A stretch of 64,000 bases of DNA from Candidatus Zhuqueibacterota bacterium (GCA_029262005.1 JAJDAG010000191.1:1-64000); one strand, 5' to 3'. Positions 8,821-64,000 are shown, counted from the stretch's first letter. A program made the numbers and translations. The notes: a model not told the origin generated them from the letters alone.

Positions 8821-8825
8821 TTCGG

Positions 8826-10776: not shown

Positions 10777-10787
10777 AATTACCTGTG

Positions 10788-44651: not shown

Positions 44652-45770
44652 TTATTTTGACCCGCCAAGCTTAATTTTCACTCTTCCCGGGCCATGAGTC
44701 CAATCAGACCAGCCAACGTTTTTGCCGGGCCTGGTCGGTGAAGGCGCAGGAAAATGTGTGCCGTAGTAATAATTTATAATGTGCGGCTGCCAGGTGTCAT
44801 CTTTTCTTGCCGGATAGTCCGCGACATTATGCAGCCACTGAAAAGCACGCAAGAGCGCTTGATCGCTCCACTGCCACACATCCTTGTAGCCCGCACGATA
44901 CAGAATAACTGCTTGCGCCAAGGCGCCCTGCAGTGCTTCATAAACATAATTTTCTTTTGGCGGAGGCCAAACAAATCCGCCCGCGCGACGTTGGTCATCG
45001 GCGATTACGCCATCGATGGAGTGGCCCGCCTTTGTAGCGCCTTTTGGATTAATGCCAACGGGATGCTCCGGATCCGACTGCCAATCCAGAGCTTTGTATT
45101 TGAATTTCGAGTAGGCGACTCTATCGCCAAGCCAGCCCTTGAACACTTTGGCGCATCGCTCAATTTCTACTTTATCGTCGAGATAAACCGCGATGGCGAC
45201 ACGGGTTCCACCTGCGTGCGTACCCCAATTGTTGGGACGATCTTCGTGCGTAGAAATGAGGGAACGACCTTTAAAGTATTCTCGTCGTACCTGCTCCAGC
45301 CATTTACGAAAAATGGCGTCTTTATCGGGTGGCAATCCCACCAGGTCAGCGGCAAGGACGTAGGCAATCAATTCACGACCAACTGCCAGACTACGTGCCC
45401 CGCGTTCGGTGCCAATAGCCGCCATACAGGCTTTGATTACATCAATGCGGTAGTTTTCATAGCCCTTCCGAACATAGACCAGAGCCTTGGCCAGCACAAG
45501 TACGTTGGTTGGATCCTCCTGATTGCTCAGGTCCGGCAGAACAGTGGGCTTGTCGGCCTCAAAACTCAATTTTTCCCAGGCAGGTCCACTTGTTGGCAAT
45601 TTTTTCACTGCCCCCTTAGAAATCCAGATCCCTTTGCTTTGAGAATTCTGTGCCAGAGAACTGGCTGCGCAGGTCAGGTTAAGCAGCATGAGCAGGCTCA
45701 AAAATGTGCACTGAAACTGCCGGGCCAGGTTGTGCTTGCAGAATGATGGTTTTATTTTTCTCATTTTCAA
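44652..45770 (-). CDS. Secreted alginate-lyase-like protein
   Basis: The 372-residue protein has a long basic N-terminus and a signal peptide (LLMLLNLTCAASSLAQ near 26-41). The mature part is helical, with RPNNWGTHAGGTRVAIA near 178-194, resembling the NNxGT motif of the alginate-lyase (PF05426-type) fold. GALAQAVILYRAGY and LLRAFQWLHNVA helices follow. It should be periplasmic. In exopolysaccharide operons such lyases trim or clear mislocalised polymer. It is last in the right-hand cluster. The substrate is unknown. Confidence 0.7.
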   Translation of the reverse strand: MKMRKIKPSFCKHNLARQFQCTFLSLLMLLNLTCAASSLAQNSQSKGIWISKGAVKKLPTSGPAWEKLSFEADKPTVLPDLSNQEDPTNVLVLAKALVYVRKGYENYRIDVIKACMAAIGTERGARSLAVGRELIAYVLAADLVGLPPDKDAIFRKWLEQVRREYFKGRSLISTHEDRPNNWGTHAGGTRVAIAVYLDDKVEIERCAKVFKGWLGDRVAYSKFKYKALDWQSDPEHPVGINPKGATKAGHSIDGVIADDQRRAGGFVWPPPKENYVYEALQGALAQAVILYRAGYKDVWQWSDQALLRAFQWLHNVADYPARKDDTWQPHIINYYYGTHFPAPSPTRPGKNVGWSDWTHGPGRVKIKLGGSK

Positions 45771-45776
45771 ATCTTA

Positions 45777-47066
45777 TTATTCAGGTAAAACCGCGGTCAA
45801 CTGTGTTGCTGATTTTTCACTCTGAGAAAATGCGCAGCCGCTGGAATATAGCAACTGCTGCAACTGTTCTGTACACTTATATAAATTGAAATCCTCTGTC
45901 ACTTTCTTGCGCCCGGCCGTGCCCAGCTTGATTCTCAGGTCACGATCTTTGGCCATCGTTTCCAGGGCTTCAGCAAATTCAAATACATTTCCGGGTGTAA
46001 AAAGTATTCCTGACCGGCCGTCTTCCACCAATTCAGGAATGCCGGAAATCCGGCTGGCAACCACCGGCAAACCGCAGGCCATCGCCTCCATCAACACCAC
46101 GGGAATGCCCTCTTTTTTGCCATCTTTGGTCAACACACTGGCCAAAGTGATTATATCGGCTCTGGCATAAAATTCGAGCACTTCGTGGCGTGGCAAGCCA
46201 CCGTAAACATGAAATCTGTCAGCAATGCCTGATTCTGCAATTTGCTTTTCTACCTGGCCGCGAACAGGACCGTAACCGATGAGGTGACAGTCAAATTTTT
46301 GCCCACGTTCCGCCAGAACCCGGCAGGCTTCAACCAAGTATTTATGCCCTTTTACAGGTTCAAACGAGGCCACGCAAACGAGCTGCAATGTGTCATTTTG
46401 TTTTTCCGGTGCAAACTTAAACGTATCTGCATCCACGCCGCAGTGCACCACTTTAATTCTGTCACTGAACGCCTCACCACTCTCTTTTACCATGATTTCT
46501 TTGTTGAACTCAGAGATGGCGATGGAAAAAGCAGACGCCTGTATTTTTCTATCAATGAAACGACGGTCCACATGCAAATCAGAACCGTGAGCCACAAAAC
46601 TGAATGGAATGCCCGTGAGGCGATGGATGATGAATGCCGACATTGCAGGGTGGGTGGCAAAATGTGCGTGCACATGCGTGACGCCTGATTTTGCCATATC
46701 CTGCGCAAATTTAACGCTTTTCGCAAAAATACCCAAAGTGCCAAACAGAAAGTTCAGGCTAGGCAAAACACCGGTGAAAACTTCCCAAATGAGGCCAAAA
46801 TACTTGCGTGGACAGCAGCGAATAAAACGCCATTGCGCCTTCAGTATTTCAATCGAAATAAACGGTTCAAAGTGGGCTTCTTCAATTATTTTTTGCGCTT
46901 CTTTGTGCGCCACAGGCTGACTTTCCCGCAGCAAAGGATAAACTTCCACCTCTGTTCCAAGCTTGCGAAGCGTAAGCATTTCAAAAAGAATAAAGGTTTC
47001 CGTCAGTTTTGGAAACCGGGACATGATGTAGGCGACTTTTGGTTTTTCAGACATTTCTATTGTCAT
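45777..47066 (-). CDS. Glycosyltransferase family 4 enzyme
   Basis: This 429-residue GT-B transferase opens VAYIMSRFPKLTETF near 10-24. It has HVHAHFATHPA near 134-144, HGSDLHVD, VHCGVDADTF near 208, VASFEPVKGHKYL near 236 and the donor-binding signature EGIPVVLMEAMACGLPVV near 308-325. It adds one sugar in the cytoplasm to the lipid-linked repeat. Six bp separate its stop from the lyase start. Donor and acceptor are not predictable. Confidence 0.9.
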   Translation of the reverse strand: MTIEMSEKPKVAYIMSRFPKLTETFILFEMLTLRKLGTEVEVYPLLRESQPVAHKEAQKIIEEAHFEPFISIEILKAQWRFIRCCPRKYFGLIWEVFTGVLPSLNFLFGTLGIFAKSVKFAQDMAKSGVTHVHAHFATHPAMSAFIIHRLTGIPFSFVAHGSDLHVDRRFIDRKIQASAFSIAISEFNKEIMVKESGEAFSDRIKVVHCGVDADTFKFAPEKQNDTLQLVCVASFEPVKGHKYLVEACRVLAERGQKFDCHLIGYGPVRGQVEKQIAESGIADRFHVYGGLPRHEVLEFYARADIITLASVLTKDGKKEGIPVVLMEAMACGLPVVASRISGIPELVEDGRSGILFTPGNVFEFAEALETMAKDRDLRIKLGTAGRKKVTEDFNLYKCTEQLQQLLYSSGCAFSQSEKSATQLTAVLPE

Positions 47067-47099
47067 ATCGTGATTAGAATGAATTCCGGTAGAACGGGC

Positions 47100-47876
47100 T
47101 TATTTCTTGAAAGTACTATCGTTTTGCTTAAGCGGAGCATGAATGAACCCATTTCCCGCATCCGAAGCATTCTGTCTGTTTGCTCCTGTTTGCGGCAAAT
47201 ACTCCTGTCCGAGTACCTTATAAATATGCCCACAGACATCCGCAAACACTTTTTCCACCGGTTGGGTTACATCTACGCATTTAAAATTGCGCGTAATTTC
47301 CCCCTGTGCCAGATAAGCCCGCCGCCGCTCTGCCAGGTACGCAATGTTTGCCTCGCCTTTACGGGCAAAAAGCACTTCAGGCGGTGCGTCAAGAAAAATC
47401 ACCAAATCGGGCTCAGGGTAAAAAAGATGCAGACACCAGCGATGTATCTTTTCTGCCACCGGTAATCCGGGAATTTGGATGCTTGCCTTATCAAAATCAA
47501 ACAGAAAGTGGCGATCAAAAAGGACGATGAAACCCTGTTTGCGATAACGCCAGGAAAGCAACTGCCGGTACCACTCTTCTGCAATCCGGTTAATCAGCCG
47601 CACATAAAGCCAGACCGACTTCACAAAGCCCTTCTTTTTTAGAATCGCCTCCTGACTGTGCAATGAGGCGCCAGGCACGCTCGATGCGCCTGAGCTTTTT
47701 CGCTTATGGGTTTTTACTGATTCAATAAAACGCGTAGTTGGCAGACCAACATTGCTCGACTCCTGATTAATGCCCATATAAAGGTATTTCAAAGGCCTTG
47801 GAAATGACTTTTGCAACATGTCTGCGATGGTTGTTTTGCCGGCGCCATCAACGCCGATTAGGGCGACTGAAATCAT
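47100..47876 (-). CDS. Thymidylate-kinase-like P-loop protein (stand-alone copy)
   Basis: The 258-residue protein begins with Walker A GVDGAGKTT near 8-16. Further on are YLYMGINQESSNVGLPTTRF near 31-50, VLFDRHFLFDFD near 117-128 and the Walker-B-like VIFLDAPPEVLFARK near 159-173. The overall order is that of dTMP kinases, but true Tmk is shorter (about 210) and lacks the YMG segment. The C-terminal domain of the 54.9-56.3 kb protein shares these motifs. A kinase acting on a sugar or lipid intermediate is a guess from context. Confidence 0.75.
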   Translation of the reverse strand: MISVALIGVDGAGKTTIADMLQKSFPRPLKYLYMGINQESSNVGLPTTRFIESVKTHKRKSSGASSVPGASLHSQEAILKKKGFVKSVWLYVRLINRIAEEWYRQLLSWRYRKQGFIVLFDRHFLFDFDKASIQIPGLPVAEKIHRWCLHLFYPEPDLVIFLDAPPEVLFARKGEANIAYLAERRRAYLAQGEITRNFKCVDVTQPVEKVFADVCGHIYKVLGQEYLPQTGANRQNASDAGNGFIHAPLKQNDSTFKK

Positions 47877-47965
47877 ATTTTTTTCTTCTTCTTTCGTCAG
47901 CGCGAAATCTTCGAACTGGTTTTCTCCGCGCTGAATGAGATTTCTATTGTCCTGTCATTTCAGCA

Positions 47966-49009
47966 TTATGAGCAACACTGAATATTATCAAACTCAGCAA
48001 CTGCCATCCGCCACATTTTATAATATCGATTTTCGCGAATCCAACTCAGCGTTTCTGCCGGCAAAATTGCGCCGGAGCCACGCGTGCCGCCAAGCCGCAA
48101 CACCAATGTGGAAACATACCGTGCCCAACAGATGACAAACAGCGCTCTTGCCGATTCAGCGGAAAGCTTGAGTTCTTCAAGGTAGTTGCCAATACTGGCT
48201 GTTGCCCAGGAATTTGCGCCAAAGAAAGCAGCGCGAAAAGCTGCCATCTGCTCATCCAAATTATTTGCATTCATGCGGGCAAAGGCGATATAACTTAAAA
48301 AGAAAAACAGATCCACTGCCGGAAGTCCGTCCGGAAGCGCCAACTCCCAATCGACAACACCTAACCTGTTCTCGGCAGAAATCAGCAAATTGGGTGAACT
48401 AAAATCGCCGTGCTCGAAAACCGTTGGCACCGTCTGCCTAACAAGTGCATCCGCGATTTCCAGTGTTTTTTCTAAGCAAACCCGATCCCTTTCAGAATCA
48501 AAAGTCAGCGCTTGCAGCAATTGCAAAGGCTTCTGTACACTGGACTTAAACCAGGAAGTTTGATTCTGCGGCATCTTTCTGGAGCAGTTGTGAACAGAGG
48601 TCAGCCAATTCACACCGGTTTCAATTGCCAGCTCCAAATTTTGACGCACAAAAGCAGGCCGCATTGTTTGGCCGGCCACCGCAGTTTCAATCAGCATTCG
48701 ATGTCCGAAATAGTCTTCAAAAGCCACAACTCTGGGTGCAGAACTCAAATCTTTGGGCAGCAATTCCTGCAACGCTTTTAGATTGTTCCTTTCGCGGCAT
48801 AAACGACTGTGATCTCCCGCAAGCCGGGGGACTTTGGCGATGAGTACCGGCTTTTTTACATTTTCCGGAAAAACAAAAAATATGAGATGACTCGACGCTT
48901 TGAAACGCGGGGTCGCTATAACAGAAGTAAACCGGTCGGCGGCACCGAACTCTTCAAGACCCAATCGGTCCTTATTCTGCAGAAGAAATGTCAGGACAGC
49001 ATTACGCAT
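47966..49009 (-). CDS. Aminoglycoside-phosphotransferase-fold kinase (stand-alone copy)
   Basis: The 347-residue protein (ATG 49009, GGGGG upstream) has the APH/choline-kinase core: EHGDFSSPNLL near 202-212 with the catalytic Asp and Asn, then VVDWELALPDGLPAVDLFFFL near 222 with the metal-binding Asp. APH-fold kinases phosphorylate hydroxyls on sugars, choline and similar small molecules. Its start shares a base with the stop of the methyltransferase-like gene (TAATG), so the two are translationally coupled. The same domain is fused to a homologous partner at 51.3-53.0 kb. Confidence 0.82.
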   Translation of the reverse strand: MRNAVLTFLLQNKDRLGLEEFGAADRFTSVIATPRFKASSHLIFFVFPENVKKPVLIAKVPRLAGDHSRLCRERNNLKALQELLPKDLSSAPRVVAFEDYFGHRMLIETAVAGQTMRPAFVRQNLELAIETGVNWLTSVHNCSRKMPQNQTSWFKSSVQKPLQLLQALTFDSERDRVCLEKTLEIADALVRQTVPTVFEHGDFSSPNLLISAENRLGVVDWELALPDGLPAVDLFFFLSYIAFARMNANNLDEQMAAFRAAFFGANSWATASIGNYLEELKLSAESARALFVICWARYVSTLVLRLGGTRGSGAILPAETLSWIRENRYYKMWRMAVAEFDNIQCCS

Positions 49010-49635
49010 TACATTTCCCCCTGCGATTTGCGGGCAACAAAACTGACGCACGGCGTCAATAACGCAACCAGGCGCAGTCTTTGCAAGAGCATGCCCAGAG
49101 CAGAAATGACCTTGCCCTTGAAGTTGCTCTGATTTCGCTGAAAAACATGTTGCAAGGCATTGCTGTCAGCCAAAGGTACCAAATCCAGACAGTGCTCAAA
49201 GTTGGGCCTGTGCCAATGCACGGTCACATCAGAATACCCAATTGTTCCAAGCCGTTTGGCCACTGCTCGTGTATTAGAAAAAATACGTGATCGTTTTAAT
49301 TCCAAATAAAGGCAGCCACCCGGTCTTAATACCTTTGTTGCCTTTTTAAGTGCCATGAAATCAGACGAATTACCCACAAGCAAGTCCAGACGTTGTACTG
49401 TACCGGTCTTACCGGCGCCGGCAGAATCAGTGAGCAAAATGACGCTGCCTGAGAATTTCTGCAATGCCTGGCAAAGTGCGCTTTCACGCTTGCCGATATA
49501 ACCGACCACACCTAATCCCGGGCTGGGAAGCAAGAAACGCCAATCGAGTCGGCGGACCGTAACCAGCTGTTCTTCGTGATTAGGTGCGGCTTTTTTATCG
49601 ACCACCGGATTTTGTTGAACTGCGATTTCTGTCAT
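49009..49635 (-). CDS. Degenerate methyltransferase-like protein
   Basis: This 208-residue protein has a Rossmann-like layout: LGVVGYIGKRE near 43-53 in place of SAM motif I, ILLTDSAG as the second strand, and KVLRPGGCLYLELKR near 100-114, a strand-5 motif of class I methyltransferases. The glycine-rich SAM loop is poor, so activity is doubtful. It shares DWRFLLP near 31-37 and several later segments with the N-terminus of the 51.3-53.0 kb fusion protein. ATGA overlap with the upstream polymerase gene and TAATG coupling to the kinase gene indicate joint function. Confidence 0.65.
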   Translation of the reverse strand: MTEIAVQQNPVVDKKAAPNHEEQLVTVRRLDWRFLLPSPGLGVVGYIGKRESALCQALQKFSGSVILLTDSAGAGKTGTVQRLDLLVGNSSDFMALKKATKVLRPGGCLYLELKRSRIFSNTRAVAKRLGTIGYSDVTVHWHRPNFEHCLDLVPLADSNALQHVFQRNQSNFKGKVISALGMLLQRLRLVALLTPCVSFVARKSQGEM

Positions 49636-51230
49636 TGAGTCAGTGGTGTTTTGTGCGAAACGAAGGGATGGGCGCCTCCTGTTTCAATTTCGATATCACC
49701 GTCTTCACTCTCAAACTCCGTGCTTAAAATGTGCACGGCAGCACCCGATATCGCCAGCAAAATCCAGAGGTAGCGTTGATAAGAAAAATGCAAAAACATG
49801 GCTGTGGTAAGGTAACAAAAAATACCGAGCAAGAAGGCCGTAGCAACATTGGCCAACTCCTGTCGACCCTCGCCAACAAACCGAACCCGCAACCGCCAGA
49901 GCCGGTAAAGCAAGTAGAAGACGATGCTCATAAAACAAACAAAGCCAAGAGTTCCCGCCTCGGCCAACATCTCAAAATAGAGTGTGTGCGCTCTCCTTGT
50001 GGAATCAATGTCGCGAAAGGCGATTTCCGGATTGGCCATGTATTGAACGGAATAGAATTTGGAATACTGACCCGGGCCAACACCGACGATTGGATGATCG
50101 AGATAGGCTGTAAAAGCCGCGAGCATTTCAGTCACCCGGCCAAGCGTGGCACCGTCGGCCTTAACAGAAGCATCGTCAGTAAAAAGCGCACTCACATTTG
50201 TAATTGAAGACATGCGGAGAAAATAGCCCGGCGATGCGATAGCGATGACGATAAGCAAACTCACAACAGACAAGACCAATTGAGAGACCTTTATGTAGCG
50301 CAACATTGTCATCATAAGTACAAGAAAAATCACTGAAATAAAGGCACCCCGTGAGTAAGTCAGTAACATACCAACCAGGATGAACAAAGTGCACCCGAGG
50401 GCCGTCACCTTCAGCCATTTTTTCTTTTCATCTATAAACCGGAATAACCCTAGCGGAAGCAGCACGATCATAATTTGACCATAACGATTGGCACCACCAA
50501 CCGGCCCACCGGCCCGATTGGCCAGACGGACTTTGTCTTCAGGGCCTGTATTTTTTGGGCCACCATCCCAATGTGAAATATTCCGTTGCGCCAGACCGCC
50601 GTAATTATCACCATAACTTTTTGTGAGTTCCTGCACGAGCGTCAGGCTGCCGAGCAAGGTTCCGGCCAACAGCAGCGTCCAGATGACCTTGCGCAAGGTG
50701 TCAAAATTGCGCACGACATTCAAAATAAGAATGTACATGGCCAGACCTTCCATCAAATAAGTTAAGATCCAATCCATGCCAACCTTAACGCTGACCGCTA
50801 CTGAAAGCGATGCAAAAAGTGAAGCCAGAAAAGCAATCATCAGCAGCCAGGTATAATCGATAATAAATCGTTCCCGGCGAATGAACCAGTAAATGGTGAG
50901 CGGTACACACAACATTAACGAAACCGAACCTGCCACAATTTGCGGCAAGCCATGAAATTTGTAAGCTACCACCGCAATGTTGGTATAAATCACAAAAATA
51001 ACCAGCAGTGTGCCCTGTTCCGGCCAAGAAAAAAATGCGACGACCATGAAGCCTACAACCACCAACGCCAGCACAATGGTCACGTGCACCTTTGTAACCA
51101 TCAAAGTCAGTAAAGCCACAACCCCAAGCACAACGAAAAGGGTAATATAGGCTGGCCCCAAAGAAAAGCGCTGCTTTTTCTTTGGGGCCATTTCCTTTAA
51201 AAATTCTTTTTGAAGATCTGCCGGATTCAA
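49632..51230 (-). CDS. O-antigen polymerase/ligase (Wzy_C family) membrane protein
   Basis: The 532-residue inner-membrane protein has about 11-12 hydrophobic helices. The conserved LLTYSRGAF lies near 307-315, and the large periplasmic loop carries HPIVGVGPGQY near 389-399 and RRAHTLYFEMLAEAGTLGF near 423-441, the O-antigen ligase/polymerase signature. It polymerises repeat units or joins a glycan to an acceptor on the periplasmic face. The first 13 residues before the ATG at 51191 use a TTG start; the true start is uncertain. Confidence 0.88.
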   Translation of the reverse strand: MNPADLQKEFLKEMAPKKKQRFSLGPAYITLFVVLGVVALLTLMVTKVHVTIVLALVVVGFMVVAFFSWPEQGTLLVIFVIYTNIAVVAYKFHGLPQIVAGSVSLMLCVPLTIYWFIRRERFIIDYTWLLMIAFLASLFASLSVAVSVKVGMDWILTYLMEGLAMYILILNVVRNFDTLRKVIWTLLLAGTLLGSLTLVQELTKSYGDNYGGLAQRNISHWDGGPKNTGPEDKVRLANRAGGPVGGANRYGQIMIVLLPLGLFRFIDEKKKWLKVTALGCTLFILVGMLLTYSRGAFISVIFLVLMMTMLRYIKVSQLVLSVVSLLIVIAIASPGYFLRMSSITNVSALFTDDASVKADGATLGRVTEMLAAFTAYLDHPIVGVGPGQYSKFYSVQYMANPEIAFRDIDSTRRAHTLYFEMLAEAGTLGFVCFMSIVFYLLYRLWRLRVRFVGEGRQELANVATAFLLGIFCYLTTAMFLHFSYQRYLWILLAISGAAVHILSTEFESEDGDIEIETGGAHPFVSHKTPLTQ

Positions 51231-51268
51231 AATATCAATGCTGTATTAAAGTAATAAGAAGAAACAGT

Positions 51269-53047
51269 TTAGCATATCTGTGGTTTCATTCTTTTTTCTA
51301 TGCTTACGTGCTGTGATGCCACTTGGGCCGCAGAAAAAATTGTCTGCAAACCGACACTTTCTGCATTTGAAATACAGAGTTTCAGAAGGTTAAAGTAGTG
51401 CCCGTCGGTTAAAGTATCATTCGTCAGCCTGGCGGATTCCTTCAGCGAGCGATGCATCCAGCAGGTGTAAAATAGAGGCGCTACCAGTTTGCCATCCAAG
51501 TTGATATTGCAGCAATATGTTTGGATTATTTGTGCCAGCCAATCAACAAATGGTGATGGTTGCAGGAAATTCGTAGCAAAGTTCTGCAATGGGTCACTGC
51601 TGCCCTGTTGGCGCAATACCCAGGAGGCAAATGTGCGCATAAAATAAAACATATCCCACAGAGGAATACCGCGCGGTTCACCCGCCTCCCAATCAATGAA
51701 AATCACGCTGTTATCTTCGGAAACCAGAATGTTCCATGTGCCGGGATCGCCATGTTGAAACACCAGCGGAAATGCTCCGTCACTGTTTTGCAGAACATCC
51801 AATTGCGTCTGCAGGAAACCACGTTCCTCTGTGGACAGCGAGTAAATTTCAGTAAAGCGCTTGAATAGCTTGCCGAGATTTTCAGCAACAGCCGGGCCAT
51901 CGACCAAGTTTGAATTGACGGATTTGCTCCCCAATTGCACGAGCCAGTCAACAGCGGCATGCGCCAGCGGGCAATCCTTTGACGCCTGAGTGCGTGCACG
52001 AAATGGCGCGCCGTGCACCGCTTTTTGAGATAGAACCGCCAAGCCGTTGTGTGTGTCGAAAAACAATGGCTCGGGATAGCTCTCTCTGTATACAAAATTT
52101 CCTTCGCGAATTGCGGCAAGGGCGCGGTATTCATTTTCCAGGCGATAGTTGAACTCCGGGGCGCGTGTCATTTTTATCACGGCATCCGGCCTGTTCGAGT
52201 TCTGAGGAAACAGGTAGTAAATGGGTTTGTTGGCGTTGTATTTTCCACGTGTAGAAAGGCCAAAACGATAATCAGCAAGATCGATGTTTGCTTTCCCCGC
52301 CAAATTGCACAGGAATTTGGGTAACCTGTTTTTCTGTGAAGCAATATTTGATTTTTGTAAAAAAACAGTGCGCCTCGGCATGACTCTGTTGAGCAGACCG
52401 CACCGACTCAAAAAACTACCGGCACGACTCATTGTGCGTTTTCTCCAGGACTGGCCGTAAAGCACATTTTCAAAGAAAAACTCGGCGATGTCCTCTGCTT
52501 CCAACGGAACGGCTGTGCGCATTTCACCACTAAAAGGGGTCAGCCAAAACTGCTGCTGTTTCTTGAGACCTGCCGCAGTAAGTCTTTTTATCAGACTGCG
52601 ACCCGCAGCCTGCATCGGGCGCCCTCTCAGTTCAAAATTCAAAACACCGTTCGGGCGCAACAAGGACGCCAGCTGTTTTTGCAGCGCCTTTTTCTGTAGA
52701 AATAATTTGATTGTTTTCGTCTTAGCGATACGAATAAAGGTAAAACTCTCTGCGGCGAAAGGCAAGTCCGCATAGGTCGCAACATGCTCAAACTTAAAAC
52801 TGCAACCCCCTTTTTCCTCGCATTTACTCTTAAACTCTGAGAGCCGGGCGCTATCAGTGCAGACCACGACGACTTCACCTGCCGTGGCAGAAAGTACTGC
52901 CACGTTGGCGGCAGAAGGCACGTCAATGCAGAGCATGCGTTCAACGCTTAAACCGGGCAACAAAAAGCGCCAGTCGGCGGAAACCATGTCCCCCTGTAAA
53001 TTGGTGCCAGGGATGAATTTTGTTGAAAGAGTCGATTCTATCATCAT
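51269..53047 (-). CDS. Fusion of methyltransferase-like domain and APH-fold kinase
   Basis: Residues 1-230 match the stand-alone 49.0-49.6 kb protein in order: DWRFLLP near 26-32, SLLRPNGVLNFELRG near 150-164, and a cysteine-poor VMPRRTVFLQKS end. Residues 250-560 form an APH kinase: FQHGDPGTWNILV near 433-445 and FIDWEAGEPRGIPLWDMFYFM near 449-469, with catalytic Asp, Asn and metal Asp all present. The SAM loop of the first domain is degenerate. The gene is 38 bp upstream of the polymerase. The split pair next to it suggests a gene duplication with fusion or fission. Confidence 0.78.
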   Translation of the reverse strand: MMIESTLSTKFIPGTNLQGDMVSADWRFLLPGLSVERMLCIDVPSAANVAVLSATAGEVVVVCTDSARLSEFKSKCEEKGGCSFKFEHVATYADLPFAAESFTFIRIAKTKTIKLFLQKKALQKQLASLLRPNGVLNFELRGRPMQAAGRSLIKRLTAAGLKKQQQFWLTPFSGEMRTAVPLEAEDIAEFFFENVLYGQSWRKRTMSRAGSFLSRCGLLNRVMPRRTVFLQKSNIASQKNRLPKFLCNLAGKANIDLADYRFGLSTRGKYNANKPIYYLFPQNSNRPDAVIKMTRAPEFNYRLENEYRALAAIREGNFVYRESYPEPLFFDTHNGLAVLSQKAVHGAPFRARTQASKDCPLAHAAVDWLVQLGSKSVNSNLVDGPAVAENLGKLFKRFTEIYSLSTEERGFLQTQLDVLQNSDGAFPLVFQHGDPGTWNILVSEDNSVIFIDWEAGEPRGIPLWDMFYFMRTFASWVLRQQGSSDPLQNFATNFLQPSPFVDWLAQIIQTYCCNINLDGKLVAPLFYTCWMHRSLKESARLTNDTLTDGHYFNLLKLCISNAESVGLQTIFSAAQVASQHVSIEKRMKPQIC

Positions 53048-53176
53048 TTATCTTCTTTGTTGCCACTGAGTCATCCAGGACCCAGAGAGAATAATCGATA
53101 CAGTATTGAATTTTCGAGTCTTGCTTTGTGCAAATGTGGCCTTATTCGCACTCATTTTCCGAAATGTTCTCTGTGG

Positions 53177-54739: not shown

Positions 54740-54878
54740 ATTTTCCTTAAACGAATGGGTTGCCCTGCGTGGACTAACCGCAAACGTCACTCAACTTCAT
54801 GTCGAGCAATCCGCCTCAAGTCCACGACAGTAATTTTTCATGCCAATTTCATCGCGAACTTCTAAGACAATTACCGCC

Positions 54879-56300: not shown

Positions 56301-57085
56301 TAAGCTCTCTGGTTGGCCATCACCTGTTTTTTTTGCCCAATCTGCCTGACCTGATAAAAGAGAAAGAAAAAGAAGCCGGCAGCGAGGACAAGTTCCATAA
56401 CTTCAGAGTATTCAGAGACAACGAAATAAAATTTCTTTGGTACTGAAAAAAGGTTTCTGTAAACTCGCCAGGCAAAAGGCATAAAAAAGAATGGAATCAA
56501 TGTAAAATGCGGAATCAACATCGACAACTCAGAACGAAAGGCCTGCATTTTTTTTGACCGCAACATCAGCAGCGGCAGCAAGCTACCATACGCTCCTATC
56601 AACAAATGTATCCATTTAAAAGCATAACCAACACCATGAACATTATGGATATTGGTTTCAGCTTGCTTGTTTATTTCTGCGTAAGATTCAGGCGTTGCCC
56701 AACCAATAATTCTTTGCCCCCAACTGATCTCTTCTCCAATCAAAAAGAAAATACCGATTGCCAACAAAACGTAAAGAACCCGAATGACTGAGTTAACACG
56801 ATAGTTTTTCACAACATATAATGTGAAAAAAAATGACATCAGCCAAAAGGCGACTTGCAGATATTCGGCAATTTTGTCTTCCCCCGTAAGCATTTTGTAT
56901 GCGTCTTTGCCCATGAGCGCAGCAACCACACCGCTGAATGCAATCAGAAATGGAAGCAAGAGCAGCAACTTCAAGCGACCTTGCGAAATGCGCCATTCCT
57001 GTGAACTCTGAGTAAAAAAGCGACTTAATTTGCTGTCTGTATTCAACTTGTTTTCCGATGTTTCAACTGTTGTTATCTGGCTCAT
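56300..57085 (-). CDS. Six-helix membrane protein of unknown function with EEISWGQR motif
   Basis: This 261-residue inner-membrane protein has about six hydrophobic helices. Between helices three and four a highly conserved-looking EEISWGQRIIGWATPE stretch (near 117-132) is followed by the TNIHNVHG segment (near 143-150). Charged residues (Glu-Glu, Arg, His-Asn) next to membrane segments suggest an enzyme active site rather than a transporter. I do not recognise a named family. Its stop overlaps the start of the NTase/kinase fusion gene. Confidence 0.7.
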   Translation of the reverse strand: MSQITTVETSENKLNTDSKLSRFFTQSSQEWRISQGRLKLLLLLPFLIAFSGVVAALMGKDAYKMLTGEDKIAEYLQVAFWLMSFFFTLYVVKNYRVNSVIRVLYVLLAIGIFFLIGEEISWGQRIIGWATPESYAEINKQAETNIHNVHGVGYAFKWIHLLIGAYGSLLPLLMLRSKKMQAFRSELSMLIPHFTLIPFFFMPFAWRVYRNLFSVPKKFYFVVSEYSEVMELVLAAGFFFFLFYQVRQIGQKKQVMANQRA

Positions 57086-57168
57086 AAATCTTTATAAGTT
57101 AAATGATAAATGACAATTTACTTCCCTGCAAGTCGAGCAAAAACAGAATACAGTTGTATTCTCCAGCC

Positions 57169-58368
57169 TCAAGAGACTGCCCGTTGACAAATTTCTTCAA
57201 GCCGTGCGGCGCTGTTTGACCAATTATAATAAGTCGTTACAAACCTTTTGCCCTCTGCCGCAAGCAATGCTCTGCCCTCGTTGTCCTCGAACAAATCAAC
57301 AATGGCGCCAACAAATTCCTTGTCGTTTTTGGCATTCAGCAAAGGCGGTTCTCCGTACTCGTCCTGAAAAAGTCCATCGGCGACTAGACGTGTAGCAACG
57401 ACCGGCACTTCCATGGCCATGGCCTCAAGCACTTTGTTCTGTGTGCCGGAAGCGTAACGTATGGGCGCTGCGAAAACAATTGCGTCCTCAAGATAAGGAC
57501 GAACATCTTCAACAAAACCGGTTACGACCACTTCCGGGAATTTCGCTGCTCTTTCAATCAGTTCAGGCAACGGATCCCTACCGGCAATAACAATACGAAA
57601 ATCGCTCAACTTTTTCCGCAACTGAGGCAAAATCTTGTTGATGAGCTGCATCGCGGCATCGTGATTGGGCGCATAATCCATGACCCCGGTGAAGACAATA
57701 TCCCGCTTTGGCTTGCTGCCGTTTTGCCGGTGCCAGAAATCGTAATCAACGCCAAGAGGCAGCAGTGGTGAGCGGTCATCAGCGCCCAAAACAGCCTTAC
57801 GATCCCTGCTTGAAATAAAGGCGACTTCGGTGGATTTTTCTATCAGCCGTTTTTCAAGCTTTCGCATTTGCAACATTTTCACGAAGTAAAATGGCGCTTT
57901 CAGTAGTCCTCGATAACGCATACTGGCGCCAAGGCGCAAAGAAGTCGCATCACAAAAATCCGTTACGATTGGCAGTCCGCTCCAGTCCGCAATAACCGGA
58001 AATACAGATTTCCCGTGAAACAGAACCAAATCGAAATCCTCGGTCTTTACCAGTCTTTCAAATGCGCGTTTCATATCTCTTACACCGCCCGACAGCTTAA
58101 TACTCTTCTTAAGATACTCGCCAATATAAGGCAACTTACCAAGCACTTCAGCGCCTGGGGTGCGGGACTCACCGTTGACATTGAAAACCATCAAATCTTC
58201 TGTCAAGGCCTCAATGTCGGCCAGTGTTTCCTGAGCAACCGACGAACGGACCAACGAAAGCAACGTGATCTCATGCCTCTCCGACAACTCCTTAACAAAA
58301 TGATAATGCCTTGTTGCACCCCGCAGCTTTGGGTGTTGCAACGCTGGAATGATATATAATATTCGCAT
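57169..58368 (-). CDS. Glycosyltransferase family 4 enzyme
   Basis: The 399-residue transferase (ATG 58368, GGGGG upstream) opens MRILYIIPALQHPKLRGATR, a pattern seen in the PEP-CTERM/EpsH-associated sugar transferases. It has LPIVTDFCDATSLR near 138-151, VFTGVMDYAPNHDA near 222-235, VIAGRDP near 260 and ASGTQNKVLEAMAMEVPVVAT near 312-332, the donor-binding loop. It is the second glycosyltransferase of the right-hand cluster. I see no exosortase or PEP-CTERM protein in the window. Confidence 0.87.
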   Translation of the reverse strand: MRILYIIPALQHPKLRGATRHYHFVKELSERHEITLLSLVRSSVAQETLADIEALTEDLMVFNVNGESRTPGAEVLGKLPYIGEYLKKSIKLSGGVRDMKRAFERLVKTEDFDLVLFHGKSVFPVIADWSGLPIVTDFCDATSLRLGASMRYRGLLKAPFYFVKMLQMRKLEKRLIEKSTEVAFISSRDRKAVLGADDRSPLLPLGVDYDFWHRQNGSKPKRDIVFTGVMDYAPNHDAAMQLINKILPQLRKKLSDFRIVIAGRDPLPELIERAAKFPEVVVTGFVEDVRPYLEDAIVFAAPIRYASGTQNKVLEAMAMEVPVVATRLVADGLFQDEYGEPPLLNAKNDKEFVGAIVDLFEDNEGRALLAAEGKRFVTTYYNWSNSAARLEEICQRAVS

Positions 58369-58423
58369 ACTATGTTTCCCCCTGTTGAGCAATTCCTGCT
58401 TTACTCGTCATTAGTAATAATCC

Positions 58424-59530
58424 TCATTGATATACTAAATGGCTAAGCTCGTTCCCTGCCCTGACTTCCTCCAACTCATTGTCAGCGGCGATGCGGCCAC
58501 CGAACGCGTCTTTGACCGAATTACCAAAAACCTGAATGCCATGATTTTCGCTCAGGTCAATGCCTTCATCCTGGCAGTTAATAAACTTGTTGTCCCGAAT
58601 CACACCACTGCCACCGTCCATATCAATGCCATCCTTGTAAGCGTTTTTAAAAATATTCTCGGCTACAACCGCGTTTGCATTGCGAACATTGACTGCATCT
58701 TTGCCAAACATATTTTCAAAACGGCAATTCTTGAGTTCGACATCAGTATCGAAAAGTGTTAACCCGGCCACAAAATTAATATTATTCACAGTCGCCCACC
58801 GCCCATGTTCAAAATGCACATGGTGAAATCGGCTCGGCCCAGCCTTGACAACGCCAATGCTCCCCCATTTAAAGAATGGGTTGCTGGCCGCGAAACGAAT
58901 CGGTGCAGACTCAGTTCCAATGGCGGTAATCGAGCCATAGGAAATTAAAGAGCAACCGGCACTGAACTTTAAGGTGACGCCAGGTTCAATGCGTAAATCA
59001 ATGCCACCTGGAATAACAATTGTCTCACTCACATGGTACGTTCCACGCGACAAATAAACTATGTTACTATTATCGGCCGCACGCTTAAACGCCGAATGTT
59101 TTTGTAAGAACATTTCGATGGAGAATGTTGCCTCTTCCGTGAAATCCTCTGAAATTGTTACATCATAACCAGTGATCCTGTGCCAATTCCAACCGGCTCT
59201 GTCAACATGATAGAGGACAGCCAGAAACAAGCCTGCAGGAAGAAGCCACGCGTTTAACCACAAAGCAATCTGCTTACCGCCCACCTTGGCCGGCTGTTTC
59301 CAAAACCAAAATACAACTGATATAAAAAGAAAGGTGGCGACGAAAAATATGTACAACTGTGTCGGCCAATTTACAACAACCTTCAAAACTGACAAAATTA
59401 TGAGTACCAGCACTACGCCACTAGTGGCGACGATTCGATTTTTTTTCAGCATTTTTGTGAAAATTTTATGCCCAAAGTTATTCACAACTGTCACAACGGG
59501 AGCGCTCAGGACATGGAGAGAGTTGTGCAT
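58424..59530 (-). CDS. Membrane-anchored right-handed beta-helix protein (NosD-like)
   Basis: Two to three N-terminal hydrophobic helices (about 31-95) anchor the protein. A right-handed parallel beta-helix follows, with repeated turns such as KNCRFENMFGKDAVNVRN, ENIFKNAYKDGIDMDGG and DNKFINCQDEGIDLSEN near 275-330. Such repeats occur in NosD and in C5-epimerases or lyases acting on uronic polymers. Start choice is uncertain: the ATG at 59530 has AGGG upstream, while the frame extends to a TTG at 59590. Confidence 0.78.
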   Translation of the reverse strand: MHNSLHVLSAPVVTVVNNFGHKIFTKMLKKNRIVATSGVVLVLIILSVLKVVVNWPTQLYIFFVATFLFISVVFWFWKQPAKVGGKQIALWLNAWLLPAGLFLAVLYHVDRAGWNWHRITGYDVTISEDFTEEATFSIEMFLQKHSAFKRAADNSNIVYLSRGTYHVSETIVIPGGIDLRIEPGVTLKFSAGCSLISYGSITAIGTESAPIRFAASNPFFKWGSIGVVKAGPSRFHHVHFEHGRWATVNNINFVAGLTLFDTDVELKNCRFENMFGKDAVNVRNANAVVAENIFKNAYKDGIDMDGGSGVIRDNKFINCQDEGIDLSENHGIQVFGNSVKDAFGGRIAADNELEEVRAGNELSHLVYQ

Positions 59531-59602
59531 AGATGGTTGCCCTGTTGCATCTTTTACGAGCTTGTTGCTTATTTTCCTGTCGGCAGACAAGGAGGCAGTA
59601 CC

Positions 59603-60811
59603 TCATTGTGCTTCCGTCCGAGCCAATTCACTTTGACCCGGAGCTGCTTCGCGACTGCCATTTTTGCAGTCTTTGCCGTTGAGTTGCCCCTCGCAAAATG
59701 GTTGCATCACTTCATACAATTTTTCAAATGACAGCGGGTAAGGATGACCCACTGCGTAGGTTTCTTTCCCTTCGAGCGCTTTTGAGAGCAGAGCCAATTG
59801 TTGCTCTGCAGCGTTCTCAATAAACAAATTTGCTTTATCGGGAAAAGCGAATTTAAACGGATAGTAGCTCTCTAAAAACGGCATCAATTCAAATTGTAAA
59901 GAAGCAACCATTCGTTTTGCAATTTCAAGCGGCGCAACTGCATTGACAGTATAATCCGTCGATTCGTGGCTCAGCATCAAGAAAACTTTGTCCGGTGTTG
60001 AGGAAAAGCCTTTGGCCAGCCGTTCAAAAATTACAGATGGAGCCCATTGGACGTTAAGCTGCCGTTTGAGAGCAGGCATGGCTTCGCGCAGAAATTTCAC
60101 CGGCATGGTTCTACCAATGCCGTTTGCAGGTAGCATGTTCTGCAGCCGGTCGAGGCCATGAATACAACTGAAAAGCGCCTTTTTCTCAAACCCAAGATGC
60201 TTCTTTAAATGCGGCATATTCTCCAGGTGCCAGTCCCAAAGCCTGATGTTTTCCGGAATGCCGTACATAGACTGGCCATCGGCCGTGAGATAAATCCACT
60301 CATCGCCGACATATTCAGCACCATGAGCAGCAAACGAGAGTAGCGCTTCCGTTTTTCCGCCTTTTGCCCAGCCGGTAACCACAATTCCAGTGCCCTTATA
60401 ATTAAAGGCAGATGCGTGCAGGGCCAACACATTTTTTTTCAAAAGAGTGAGATTAAGTACTGCAAGCAGCGACGGTACTGACTTCAGGCCACTCTGACAT
60501 ACGAATTCGATGCGCCCACCAACCTGGCCTAATGAAACAGCCACCTTTGCATCACGCTTGCTGCTTCGCAATATGAAAAATTCATCCTCATTGTAACCAA
60601 GTTTCTTCGGGCCAAGATAGTGCAGCCCCGGGGTTTGTAGCTCGGAAACAAAGCGAATAACAATGTCAGGGTCACGATCCAGTGATTTCTGCAACGGTCC
60701 GAGTTGTTTCGCTACAGTTTCGACATCTTTACAGCTGGGATTGAACAGTCGAACGCCCACGAATCCGTGTATATCGAAATCAATAATATTTTCTGTGTCA
60801 ATAGCGCTCAT
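59603..60811 (-). CDS. HPr-kinase-like protein
   Basis: This 402-residue protein has a beta-rich N-terminus and an HprK-like kinase domain. LHASAF leads to Walker A GWAKGGKTEALL near 147-158 and the strand EYVGDEWIYL near 168-177. It lacks the HprK signature MEIRGxG that phosphorylates HPr Ser46. Similar HprK-related kinases occur in exopolysaccharide and lasso-peptide loci. It overlaps the ATP-grasp gene by 4 bp, so the pair is coupled. The substrate is unknown. Confidence 0.75.
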   Translation of the reverse strand: MSAIDTENIIDFDIHGFVGVRLFNPSCKDVETVAKQLGPLQKSLDRDPDIVIRFVSELQTPGLHYLGPKKLGYNEDEFFILRSSKRDAKVAVSLGQVGGRIEFVCQSGLKSVPSLLAVLNLTLLKKNVLALHASAFNYKGTGIVVTGWAKGGKTEALLSFAAHGAEYVGDEWIYLTADGQSMYGIPENIRLWDWHLENMPHLKKHLGFEKKALFSCIHGLDRLQNMLPANGIGRTMPVKFLREAMPALKRQLNVQWAPSVIFERLAKGFSSTPDKVFLMLSHESTDYTVNAVAPLEIAKRMVASLQFELMPFLESYYPFKFAFPDKANLFIENAAEQQLALLSKALEGKETYAVGHPYPLSFEKLYEVMQPFCEGQLNGKDCKNGSREAAPGQSELARTEAQ

Positions 60812-62100
60812 ACTTTTGCCTCTGACTGTACTTCTGCCGGCGAATCCACCACTTTAGCATTGGTAACGGAATTGACGTTGTTCTTAACCGAGTCTCCCGG
60901 CTTGTTCTCCCGAGAAAAAACAACGGCGGCAAACTTCCCAAAGAAATCTGCAAAAAATGGACGCAAATCCGTTGACGACCACACTGCGTAACCCTTTTTC
61001 CCGCGCAACGATTTTACCCATTGGCGAAAAGTCAAATCACCGCGCCGCCAGTAGAACCACGCAGACTGTAAATCACGACGCCAGTAAATCCATTTTACAC
61101 CACCATATTTCTGCACCCGATTTTCCGGGAGAGGTAGCCCAACAACATCACAATACTTGGTGTACAACAGTGCAACATCGCCGGCCTCGGAAATGGCTGA
61201 TCGGCCTGTTGGCCGGCCAATATTGGGTTCAATAATGTAGTGTTTGCCGGAACGCTCATCCTTTTTCATTTCAACATATCCTAGACCGCGGTATTGCACC
61301 TTGCGAAAAAGCTGGACTGTTTCTTCTAACACAATGTCGTTCCGCACTTCCTCACCCAGACAACTTGTGCCCACTTCCGGTGGCCACTGCCGCAGCTTAC
61401 GTGCAATAAATGTTACCAACGGTTCAGACTCAGAATCAAAATAACAATTGCAGGAATATAAATTTGCATCGGTGCCTTCTACACAATCCTGCACCATTAA
61501 TATATCGGCCCAATCGCAACAGCGGTCGTATAACGCCACCAATTCTTTTTCACCGGCGACTTTATAAACTTTGTGTTTTGTATTGGCTTCCCATTTAGGG
61601 GATTTCATTGGCGGCTTCAAAATGCAAGGGTAGGCAATCGACTTCAACGCGACATCAAGATCCGAGCGGCTTTCAAGGAAAAAGGTAGATGGGATCGGCA
61701 GCCCTTCCTTCTGGGCAAACTTGATGAACGCTATTTTGTCCATAAGCATTTCTACTACAGGCGCATCCGGGAGTACAACGTGGTAGTCCTGCTGCAAGTT
61801 CTCACGGTGACGAGAAATCTGCAAGACACTCATATCAGTACACGGATACAAAACCGCCTTTTGTTTCAATTCGCCTGCCAGTACTTTGAGAGTTTCAATA
61901 AACTCTGTTGAAGATGTGTCAGCAAAAAGCACCCGATCGCAGGCTTTTGTATGACAAGCAAAATGCCCTGGGTTTTTTGCAATGGCAATCACCGGAACAT
62001 CATGACCGGCCAGAATTCTGGCGCTTTGCAAGCCCGTCATACAGTCGAGACCAACTATAATGGCAGGTGGTCTGTTAGAATTTTTCTTATTACTATTCAT
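60808..62100 (-). CDS. ATP-grasp family ligase
   Basis: The 430-residue protein has an N-terminal Rossmann-like pre-ATP-grasp domain (IIVGLDCMTGLQSARIL near 14-30). The ATP-grasp core follows: DKIAFIKFAQKEGLPIPST near 120, YPCILKPPMKSP near 155, LMVQDCVEGTDANLYS near 202 and YIIEPNIGRPTGRSA near 291, which holds the metal-binding Glu and Asn. Such enzymes join a carboxylate to an amine or thiol through an acyl phosphate. Its link with the HprK-like gene suggests ligation of an amino acid or similar group to the glycan; that is inference. Confidence 0.82.
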   Translation of the reverse strand: MNSNKKNSNRPPAIIVGLDCMTGLQSARILAGHDVPVIAIAKNPGHFACHTKACDRVLFADTSSTEFIETLKVLAGELKQKAVLYPCTDMSVLQISRHRENLQQDYHVVLPDAPVVEMLMDKIAFIKFAQKEGLPIPSTFFLESRSDLDVALKSIAYPCILKPPMKSPKWEANTKHKVYKVAGEKELVALYDRCCDWADILMVQDCVEGTDANLYSCNCYFDSESEPLVTFIARKLRQWPPEVGTSCLGEEVRNDIVLEETVQLFRKVQYRGLGYVEMKKDERSGKHYIIEPNIGRPTGRSAISEAGDVALLYTKYCDVVGLPLPENRVQKYGGVKWIYWRRDLQSAWFYWRRGDLTFRQWVKSLRGKKGYAVWSSTDLRPFFADFFGKFAAVVFSRENKPGDSVKNNVNSVTNAKVVDSPAEVQSEAKV

Positions 62101-64000
62101 GTCTTTCCAAACTCGCTACGGCCTGTATGTTTGTGATAAAACTATTTATTCCGGGTAGATTATTGTAATACCTGTCGGCTGCATGCTCTGACCACCGCGG
62201 ATGCTTGGTAACAAAACCACTGCCCAGAACATCCTTTGCCCGCAAGACATAATTGCCGGTTTTGGGCGAAACGAACTGTGCCCGCCACCGCTTGCTCTCT
62301 GGCCAATCCATTGCCAAATCACTCAGAGAATGGCTCACCGTTAATTTGTTTCGAGAAAAATAATCAGAATCAACCAAACGTTTATTTCCAAAAAATACGG
62401 AATTCAAGACGTCTCCGGAGCCGCCGCCAAACATGGGCTTCTTGCGTTTAACCTCCATTGCGAGATGATTGTCAACAAAAGTGCAATGAGCAATCCGCGC
62501 GTGCGACAAATCTTTGATGGAAATACCAATATCACAACCCAGGAACAAATTATTGAAAATTGTCGGACTGGAATTCTCACCAACACTGATGGCTTTATCT
62601 GCAACCCGTTCGAACCGATTGTTGCGGATTTCCAGAGTGCTGCCGGACATGTCTATGCCATCGCCGTAAATGTCCGTAAACAGGCAATTTTCTATTGTGC
62701 CGGTACCGAAGTCAATATCGATGGCATCGCTGTCATTCCGGGTGAATGTACAGAAGCGCATTTCAATGTGTCCATTTTTTAAATTGACACCATCCTCACT
62801 AATCATGTTTGAAAAACTACTGTGTTCCAGCAGTAAATTTCCCTCATGCACCGCGAATCCGCCACTAAAAAGAACACCGTTAATTTGAGCCTGGCTACCG
62901 TCGCTGAAATCAACATACTTTAACACAACGGTTTCAGAAGGGCGCAGCACGGCGACTGAGCCAAAAGGCTTTCCTGAAGCATCGCCATGAATGTGAATTC
63001 GTTGTTCCTTTGTGCCCTCGGCAAAAAAGCCACCATAACACAGAATTTTCGTCCTGGGAGCAAGCGTAATGTCAGCCCCTGGTTTGATGACGACGGTCAC
63101 GCCATGCGGCACGATGATATCACCAGAGAACAAAACCTTACCTCTGAGAACCACGGTGTTTGGCCGGGATTCATCCACACCAAATTCAGGGTGTGCAGCC
63201 AGAAACTCATCGCGTGAAAAAAACGGCGCGTCCAGATCAAAAGGGTCAGAATTGTCGAAAGCAGTGATGCCGGTATAGTTCGGCGGCAGTGGTTTGGTTT
63301 GATTGATAAATGCAGACGGAATCTTGTAACCCGTGACTTCGTTCTGCGCAACAACTGTGATCTTTGGCGCCTTCCAAATGAGAGGATGCCTTTCCGCCGG
63401 CGTAAGCTTTCCTTTTAGAAAATAACGCCGACTGCTCGTTTTCGTATCAAAATACTCCCAGTATCTCCCATCAATTTCATCGCCGCCGTAAACAATCTCC
63501 GGTAGAATCTGTTCAGAAATTTGAAACTCGAGCGAGCCGTCACTACCGGCAGTTTTGCTAACGAAAAGTTTGTCGGCCTTATCCCATTTGCCATCGTTAT
63601 TTGAGTCTTCAAAAAGCTGATATTCACCGGAAAAAGACAATGAATCGCGCAATTGAATACTCTGCAATTCGACGCCATCAAAGTTGAGCACGCTCATTTC
63701 CAGGGCAGCCAGATCATCTGCCAGTAACCTGTAGGCAAAATTACAATCCGAATTATTCAAGACTTTATAGGTCCGATGGACATTGTATGCAAAAATCTTC
63801 CTGTGGTCATCCATCTTGTAGCCGTTTATAGGCGTGGTCAGAACATCAGCCCAGGCATAAGGACGAACGCTGTTGTGCAATTTGTCATATTTTTTCAATA
63901 AGCGCTGACCGCCGTCATCGATAAACCCCCAAAGCATGCGATTCCTTTGCAGCCGCAATTGTGGATCCTCCAGCATAGCGCGTTGCAAAACGTCCGGGCC
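62093..64000 (-). CDS. Large right-handed beta-helix protein, 5' end beyond the window
   Basis: The frame stays open to the right edge, so the N-terminus is missing; about 635 residues are visible. The first 110 residues are helical. An EF-hand-like calcium loop, DSNNDGKWDKAD, lies near 127-138. From about residue 290 the protein is a beta-helix with repeats such as CTFTRNDSDAIDIDFG, NCLFTDIYGDGIDMSG and NNRFERVADKAISVGE. It resembles surface or periplasmic NosD/pectate-lyase-fold proteins. It overlaps the ATP-grasp gene by 8 bp. The missing start may carry a signal peptide or a kinase domain. Confidence 0.75.
   Translation of the reverse strand, partial: GPDVLQRAMLEDPQLRLQRNRMLWGFIDDGGQRLLKKYDKLHNSVRPYAWADVLTTPINGYKMDDHRKIFAYNVHRTYKVLNNSDCNFAYRLLADDLAALEMSVLNFDGVELQSIQLRDSLSFSGEYQLFEDSNNDGKWDKADKLFVSKTAGSDGSLEFQISEQILPEIVYGGDEIDGRYWEYFDTKTSSRRYFLKGKLTPAERHPLIWKAPKITVVAQNEVTGYKIPSAFINQTKPLPPNYTGITAFDNSDPFDLDAPFFSRDEFLAAHPEFGVDESRPNTVVLRGKVLFSGDIIVPHGVTVVIKPGADITLAPRTKILCYGGFFAEGTKEQRIHIHGDASGKPFGSVAVLRPSETVVLKYVDFSDGSQAQINGVLFSGGFAVHEGNLLLEHSSFSNMISEDGVNLKNGHIEMRFCTFTRNDSDAIDIDFGTGTIENCLFTDIYGDGIDMSGSTLEIRNNRFERVADKAISVGENSSPTIFNNLFLGCDIGISIKDLSHARIAHCTFVDNHLAMEVKRKKPMFGGGSGDVLNSVFFGNKRLVDSDYFSRNKLTVSHSLSDLAMDWPESKRWRAQFVSPKTGNYVLRAKDVLGSGFVTKHPRWSEHAADRYYNNLPGINSFITNIQAVASLERHE

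Follow-up and report, generated by a model that had tools for sequence, protein, structure and literature searches.

The question raised by one end of a contig from a Candidatus Zhuqueibacterota bacterium (GCA_029262005.1) is what kind of glycan would be made by a Wzx/Wzy gene cluster that is rich in kinase and ligase folds. The window, meaning the whole 64,000-nucleotide stretch analysed, corresponds to bases 1-64000 of contig C103 (JAJDAG010000191.1, 65134 bp) of a 5.77 Mb genome in 205 contigs. The cluster consists of 15 genes, all on the minus strand, which lie between 44652 and the end of the contig at 65134 with intergenic gaps of -8 to +129 bp. Judged from sequence, it is a Wzx/Wzy surface-polysaccharide operon whose own kinase and ligase set would give the repeat unit acidic phosphorus side groups (probability about 0.5), and the product is likely to be an acidic phospho-decorated glycan. 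The folds named in the original prediction, i.e. ATP-grasp, HprK-like, two TMK-like and two APH-type proteins together with Wzx, a Wzy-type protein and glycosyltransferases (GTs), were all found in their places.

Family calls were made with Pfam and NCBIfam profiles and judged by the curated cut-offs. The TMK-like P-loop kinase at 47100..47876 (Walker A GVDGAGKT) and the TMK-like part of the protein at 54879..56300, which is fused to an NTP_transf_5-like nucleotidyltransferase (NTase) domain detected by a weak match, passed PF02223 with 37.6 and 27.3 bits at a cut-off of 27. The equivalog cut-off of dTMP kinase TIGR00041, 83.25 bits, was not reached by either of them (33.9 bits for 47100..47876 and 28.7 bits for the fusion). 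In alignment A2 of the NTase-TMK fusion, E68xD70 was invariant and the P-loop read APDGAGKS. The stand-alone APH-fold phosphotransferase at 47966..49009 (start set at ATG 49009; HGDFSSPNLL and VDWE, alignment A5) and the methyltransferase-fold/APH-fold fusion at 51269..53047 (MT-APH; HGDPGTWNIL and IDWE) passed PF01636 with 51.5 and 26.7 bits, respectively, compared with the required 23.2, and the HGDxxxxN...DWE motifs were intact in both. The mean predicted local distance difference test (pLDDT) value of the MT-APH model was 55 and only its methyltransferase-fold part, about residues 34-140, was usable; this N-terminal part is predicted to have a class-I methyltransferase fold, as the modelled domain matched class-I methyltransferases. 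The domain is probably non-catalytic because no S-adenosylmethionine-binding glycine motif was visible in it. A stand-alone methyltransferase-like domain at 49009..49635, which matched PF05148 weakly and was syntenic in relatives, shares the WRFLLP motif with MT-APH and is probably a degenerate partner of the stand-alone APH gene.

The HprK-like kinase at 59603..60811 carries the Walker A sequence GWAKGGKT followed by GDE, and its P-loop was intact, as were those of the TMK-like proteins; the Walker A region aligned to 3tqf with an E value of 0.009. In the case of the ATP-grasp ligase at 60808..62100 (PRK12767-like), the fold was supported by the conserved ILKPP, VEMKKDER and IIEPNIGRP of alignment A3. 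The assignments of these two proteins rest on weaker matches together with conserved motifs. A match of the HprK-like protein to FomB, a phosphonate monophosphate kinase, was set aside at 16 bits versus a cut-off of 400. To the six phosphotransferase and ligase folds counted originally, the gene at the window edge adds a seventh, as it encodes a CotH kinase domain with a beta-helix and an N-terminal membrane anchor (locus L009; 62093..64000, continuing to 65134; PF08757, 59.2 bits at a cut-off of 23.8).

Whether these genes stay linked elsewhere was determined with 82 genomes of the phylum, the Fisher p values being without correction for genome relatedness. The MT-APH fusion was detected in 12 of the 82 genomes and the HprK-like protein in the same 12 as well as in G012 and G045 (p about 1e-12). 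The genomes bearing these two proteins were also tracked by the TMK-like and NTase-TMK proteins and by most ATP-grasp orthologues (p about 1e-11 for the latter). Apart from some rearrangements, four families of the class have retained the order of genes in the region of Wzx, MT-APH, Wzy, MT and APH, and synteny was seen in G002, G003, G004, G006, G017, G027, G030, G066, G072, G079, G080 and Calditrichaceae MAG_33. Orthologues of the TMK-like protein at 47100..47876 were located inside clusters and, elsewhere, beside HprK or ATP-grasp genes. Three HprK copies outside the main cluster (G012:C8, G003:C58, G004:C228) still adjoined TMK-like and ATP-grasp genes. The TMK-HprK-ATP-grasp trio was observed without a PEP mutase at L083-L086, with a FemAB-like GNAT protein alongside in G012:C8 and G003:C58. 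The proposed linkage of the kinases, syntenic in several genera and families and co-occurring across the phylum, was therefore not refuted. A scan of genome contigs gave four loci, one being G003 itself and one (L044) belonging to the same assembly as G079, so that the spread beyond the phylum was barely sampled. The deposited labels of relatives, which may be wrong, are KSB1 metagenome-assembled genomes OFTM356 (G003) and MAG_5, Calditrichaceae MAG_33 and Deltaproteobacteria PRO9.

The unusual ratio of kinases to GTs that had drawn attention to the cluster was partly a contig-end effect, to which most of the GT shortage is due. In G002 and in G003, which is of the same family as the window genome, the genes that come before CotH are VTC, DUF4956, a member of the phosphoenolpyruvate (PEP) mutase family, a 2-hydroxyacid dehydrogenase (2HDH), GT2, Wzc and an SLBB protein. 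The same gene set is borne by contig C117 (13869 bp) of the window genome, where 2HDH occupies 10154-11113 and the PEP-mutase-like gene 11200-12084, where an initiating transferase (PF02397, 217 bits, 8344-8904) is located between Wzc and GT2, and where Wzc and the SLBB/Wza-like protein are 66% and 61% identical to their G003 counterparts. VTC extends to the end of C117, CotH reaches the end of C103 and is cut there, and the two are neighbours in G002 and G003; we infer that both contigs form one locus with their ends meeting as in the gene order of the relatives. The count of only two GTs holds for the window, but with C117 joined to C103 there are an initiating transferase and three GTs, which weakens the argument from the ratio. 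The PF02397 transferase, GT2, two GT4 proteins, Wzx, the Wzy-type protein, Wzc and the SLBB/Wza-like protein make up a complete assembly and export line, split over C103 and C117. A 271-aa open reading frame recurring in the relatives was discarded as probably an antisense frame of the initiating transferase gene, since its C117 matches overlap PF02397 on the other strand.

The nature of the acid is suggested by the PEP-mutase-family protein of C117. Its G002 orthologue, 86% identical, matched PF13714 with an E value of 4e-58, and the nearest solved structures of the orthologue were those of PEP mutase (PepM) 5unc (4.6e-63), phosphonopyruvate hydrolase 2dua (3.6e-58) and PepM 1m1b (4.8e-58); methylisocitrate lyase was a far weaker match (7e-34). 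The nearest NCBIfam model of the C117 protein was TIGR02320. In the alignment to 1m1b, the Mytilus PepM positions S46, D58, D85, D87, E114, K120, N122, R159 and H190, which we take to be its catalytic residues, were retained. The C117-type genes, recognised by the motif EDN, adjoin 2HDH wherever both were readable. Canonical PepMs (EDKxFPKTNS; 391-404 bits with TIGR02320) were found in G027:C44, G030:C13 and G045:C448, and all three adjoin the same 2HDH and ATP-grasp families as those of the window genome; G045:C448 is a like-built cluster with HprK, TMK and a Wzy-type protein in which the canonical PepM occupies the PEP-mutase slot. As a partner of PepM, 2HDH pulls the reaction towards phosphonolactate (PMC12871164), while in phosphonopeptide pathways VlpB is a phosphonopyruvate reductase and ATP-grasp ligases occur (PMC11867202). 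Due to the likeness to PepM, the adjacency of 2HDH and the 2HDH precedent, the favoured candidate for the acid in this genome is a phosphonate, probably phosphonolactate, with odds that are about even. At L108 and L109 (G027:C44 and G030:C13), an MBOAT acyltransferase and a DUF1574-like protein adjoin 2HDH, canonical PepM and ATP-grasp, a gene set which suggests that an exported polymer is O-acylated with a phosphonate acid.

Several results weigh against the proposed reading of the operon. The C117 protein does not show the PepM signature EDKX5NS but reads EDNHFPKRNS, with the diagnostic lysine lost, and its TIGR02320 score is 268.7 bits versus the cut-off of 319.55. Because its own protein fails these membership tests, the cluster is not classed as an established phosphonoglycan locus. 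No cytidylyltransferase (PF12804 or PF01467), which is typical of PepM loci (PMC6697681), was detected among the window-type cluster proteins scanned. The HprK-like protein scored 14 bits with PF07475 at a cut-off of 33.3, and its fold prediction from a two-sequence alignment had a mean pLDDT of 32 and was left unused. The ATP-grasp protein remained below the curated cut-offs as well (16.7 versus 19.8 bits with PF02786 and 56.9 versus 218 bits with NF009402). The join of C117 to C103 is deduced from the gene order of relatives. Finally, ATP-grasp and HprK genes were found without an adjoining PepM/2HDH pair in G083, G084, G004, G012 and the second copy of G003, and the substrates of the two proteins can therefore not be phosphonates everywhere; a strict tie of both to phosphonate was rejected on the same ground.

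The lost lysine and the low TIGR02320 score are also what would be expected if the PEP-mutase-like protein were another enzyme of the isocitrate-lyase superfamily, making no C-P bond, and if an ordinary phosphate or phosphodiester were installed by the HprK, APH, TMK and NTase proteins. The kinase core kept without PepM in G083, G084 and G066 and the HprK plus NTase precedent of lasso peptides agree with such an ordinary phosphate. The retained Mytilus PepM active-site residues and the adjacency of every readable EDN-type gene to the 2HDH family of the three canonical PepMs speak against it, and it is considered possible but unlikely.

The clusters without the pair were informative for the kinases. 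In Calditrichaceae MAG_33, ATP-grasp and HprK come immediately after GT2, the PEP-mutase/2HDH pair being absent, and in MAG_33 and PRO9 there was no PEP-mutase homologue above noise while HprK was kept. As the pair is optional, the kinase core has a function independent of phosphonate, and by analogy its simplest role would be to phosphorylate the glycan or a small group carried by it. In lasso-peptide tailoring, phospho-groups are made by an HprK-like kinase and an NTase (PMC8498205). The main clusters of G004 and G027/G080 contain sulfotransferases and lack the PEP-mutase/2HDH pair, the canonical PepM set of G027 being located elsewhere. A sulfated polymer was considered on account of the sulfotransferases and ATP sulfurylase of G004 and G027/G080, none of which was seen in the window's cluster. 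Adjoining a sulfotransferase at L033:1334-3496 (G027) is an unusual fusion of a pyruvate-kinase-type barrel, a PUA-like domain and ATP-sulfurylase, with a 77% identical copy in G080:C3.

The sulfotransferases, suggesting sulfate as the anion in some relatives, and the heptose-type genes of related loci (GmhA-like SIS, GHMP-kinase and nucleotidyltransferase) would fit an ordinary Wzx/Wzy cluster with a polymer free of phosphorus substituents, the kinases and the ligase then being used for regulation or for supplying sugar precursors. However, none of the six proteins matched a known sugar-kinase family above cut-off, and the HprK-like protein shows co-variation with both MT/APH pairs and both TMK-like proteins. 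To our knowledge, the PEP-mutase/2HDH pair has no role in the common sugar-nucleotide pathways either. Precursor supply or regulation is accordingly held to be improbable, and a phospho-decorated glycan is still the best reading, with the qualification that the phosphorus may be phosphonate provided by a pair outside the window. Several modules, i.e. sulfotransferase, CotH-VTC-DUF4956 and heptose genes, differ between relatives, so that no single chemistry of decoration applies throughout. The original interpretation is in this sense partly supported, its outline being correct and its content incomplete, as the most telling genes lie outside the window.

Regarding the mechanism behind the acidic phosphorus side groups, the C117 PEP-mutase-like protein would turn PEP into phosphonopyruvate, and the adjoining 2HDH would reduce this to phosphonolactate, thereby pulling the reaction forward. 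The ATP-grasp ligase would then activate the carboxylate of phosphonolactate and link it to a sugar or an aminosugar, with the phosphonate group staying free. Hydroxyls on the repeat unit or on a small group would be phosphorylated by the HprK-like and APH-like proteins; a second phosphate could come from the TMK-like domains and might be what the NTase domain builds on, as with lasso peptides. The product would be flipped, polymerised and exported, with CotH-VTC-DUF4956 acting at the membrane. That the surface polysaccharide is indeed acylated with carboxylate-linked phosphonolactate, attached by ATP-grasp with its phosphonate free, is a tentative proposal with the odds clearly against it.

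The remaining genes fit a polysaccharide operon. The Wzx flippase (53177..54790; PF01943, 72.6 bits, above cut-off) is 55-76% identical among relatives with the full cluster. The protein at 49632..51230 is a Wzy/WaaL-type polymerase or ligase (PF04932, Wzy_C, 70.4 bits at a cut-off of 31.7), between which PF04932 cannot distinguish. A GT4 glycosyltransferase at 45777..47066, assigned by profile match, is syntenic in G003, G004, G011, G017, G027 and G030. The last gene of the run, 44652..45770, encodes an alginate-lyase-family protein (PF05426, 33.9 bits at a cut-off of 22.2) with a 63% identical protein in G011, where a minimal form of the cluster lies nearby. A hydrophobic, probably multi-pass membrane protein at 56300..57085 gave no match in the Pfam scan and is conserved in relatives; a membrane-anchored beta-helix protein (PF13229, 39 bits) is located at 58424..59590. 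The second GT4 glycosyltransferase, 57169..58392, resembles TIGR03087 (stp1) below cut-off, and together with TIGR03097- and TIGR03007-like matches it raised the idea of an exopolysaccharide locus associated with exosortase (XrtA/PEP-CTERM). All three matches were under cut-off and a search of the genome for exosortase PF09721 was negative, so the link was rejected as highly improbable. The C-terminal approximately 100 aa of a 1417-aa protein (L032:4992-9245) recur in many large proteins near the clusters and are likely a secretion or sorting tail.

With Wzx/Wzy-dependent exopolysaccharide and capsule clusters, the locus shares the PF02397 transferase, GTs, Wzx, Wzy-type, Wzc and SLBB/Wza-like proteins; it differs in the conserved HprK-like, TMK-like, NTase-TMK, MT-APH and ATP-grasp genes and CotH-VTC-DUF4956, which we do not know as a standard set. 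No description of the cluster was found in the titles and abstracts of the literature on KSB1 with exopolysaccharide or phosphonate, and it is a real variant of the Wzx/Wzy type of glycan cluster, apparently an undescribed one. CotH, polyphosphate polymerase and DUF4956 also stand beside an exopolysaccharide operon in Gram-positive Pel loci (PMC7112168), whereas here the operon is of Wzx/Wzy type, in the KSB1 group, and CotH is fused to a beta-helix. In lasso-peptide phospho-tailoring (paeninodin kinase, pseudomycoidin nucleotidyltransferase; PMC8498205), too, the genes for an HprK-type kinase and an NTase share an operon. The resemblance of the HprK-like and NTP_transf_5-like genes to these tailoring genes would allow a lasso-peptide-like modified-peptide system, but the sequence similarity is weak, no asparagine-synthetase-type cyclase, PqqD-like domain or leader protease was found among the cluster proteins scanned, and the context is that of a glycan with Wzx, a Wzy-type protein and GTs; such a system is hardly credible.

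A PEP-mutase-like gene within a surface-glycan cluster is shared with PepM-based phosphonoglycan loci such as that for the Bacteroides fragilis capsular polysaccharide (PMC6697681), in which 2HDH, ATP-grasp ligase and the EDN motif of the present locus have no counterpart: here 2HDH replaces the decarboxylase and the aminoethylphosphonate (AEP) transaminase, and a PntC-type cytidylyltransferase is lacking. The classic set does occur in the same phylum, at G044:C44 (L110:8061-11997), as canonical PepM, a thiamine-diphosphate-dependent decarboxylase and an NTP_transf_3-aminotransferase fusion of PntC-AEPT type. The valinophos and phosphonoalamide pathways (PMC11867202, PMC12871164) have PepM with a reductase or another driving enzyme and ATP-grasp ligases in common with the locus, but small peptides are produced there and the neighbourhood here is one of glycan assembly.

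Bacterial phosphonate capacity is thought to serve mostly cell-surface tailoring, the known logic being nucleotidyl activation of AEP (PMC6697681). A cluster in which a PEP-mutase-like protein is combined with a reductase, several uncharacterised kinases and an ATP-grasp ligase, here in an uncultured phylum, would follow another logic of tailoring. If true, phosphonolactyl acylation would be a route independent of the cytidine monophosphate activation proposed for known phosphonoglycans, with phosphorylation by HprK, TMK and APH in addition. The versions of the locus with and without each module offer a clean setting in which the roles of the HprK-like, TMK-like and MT-APH proteins may be learned.

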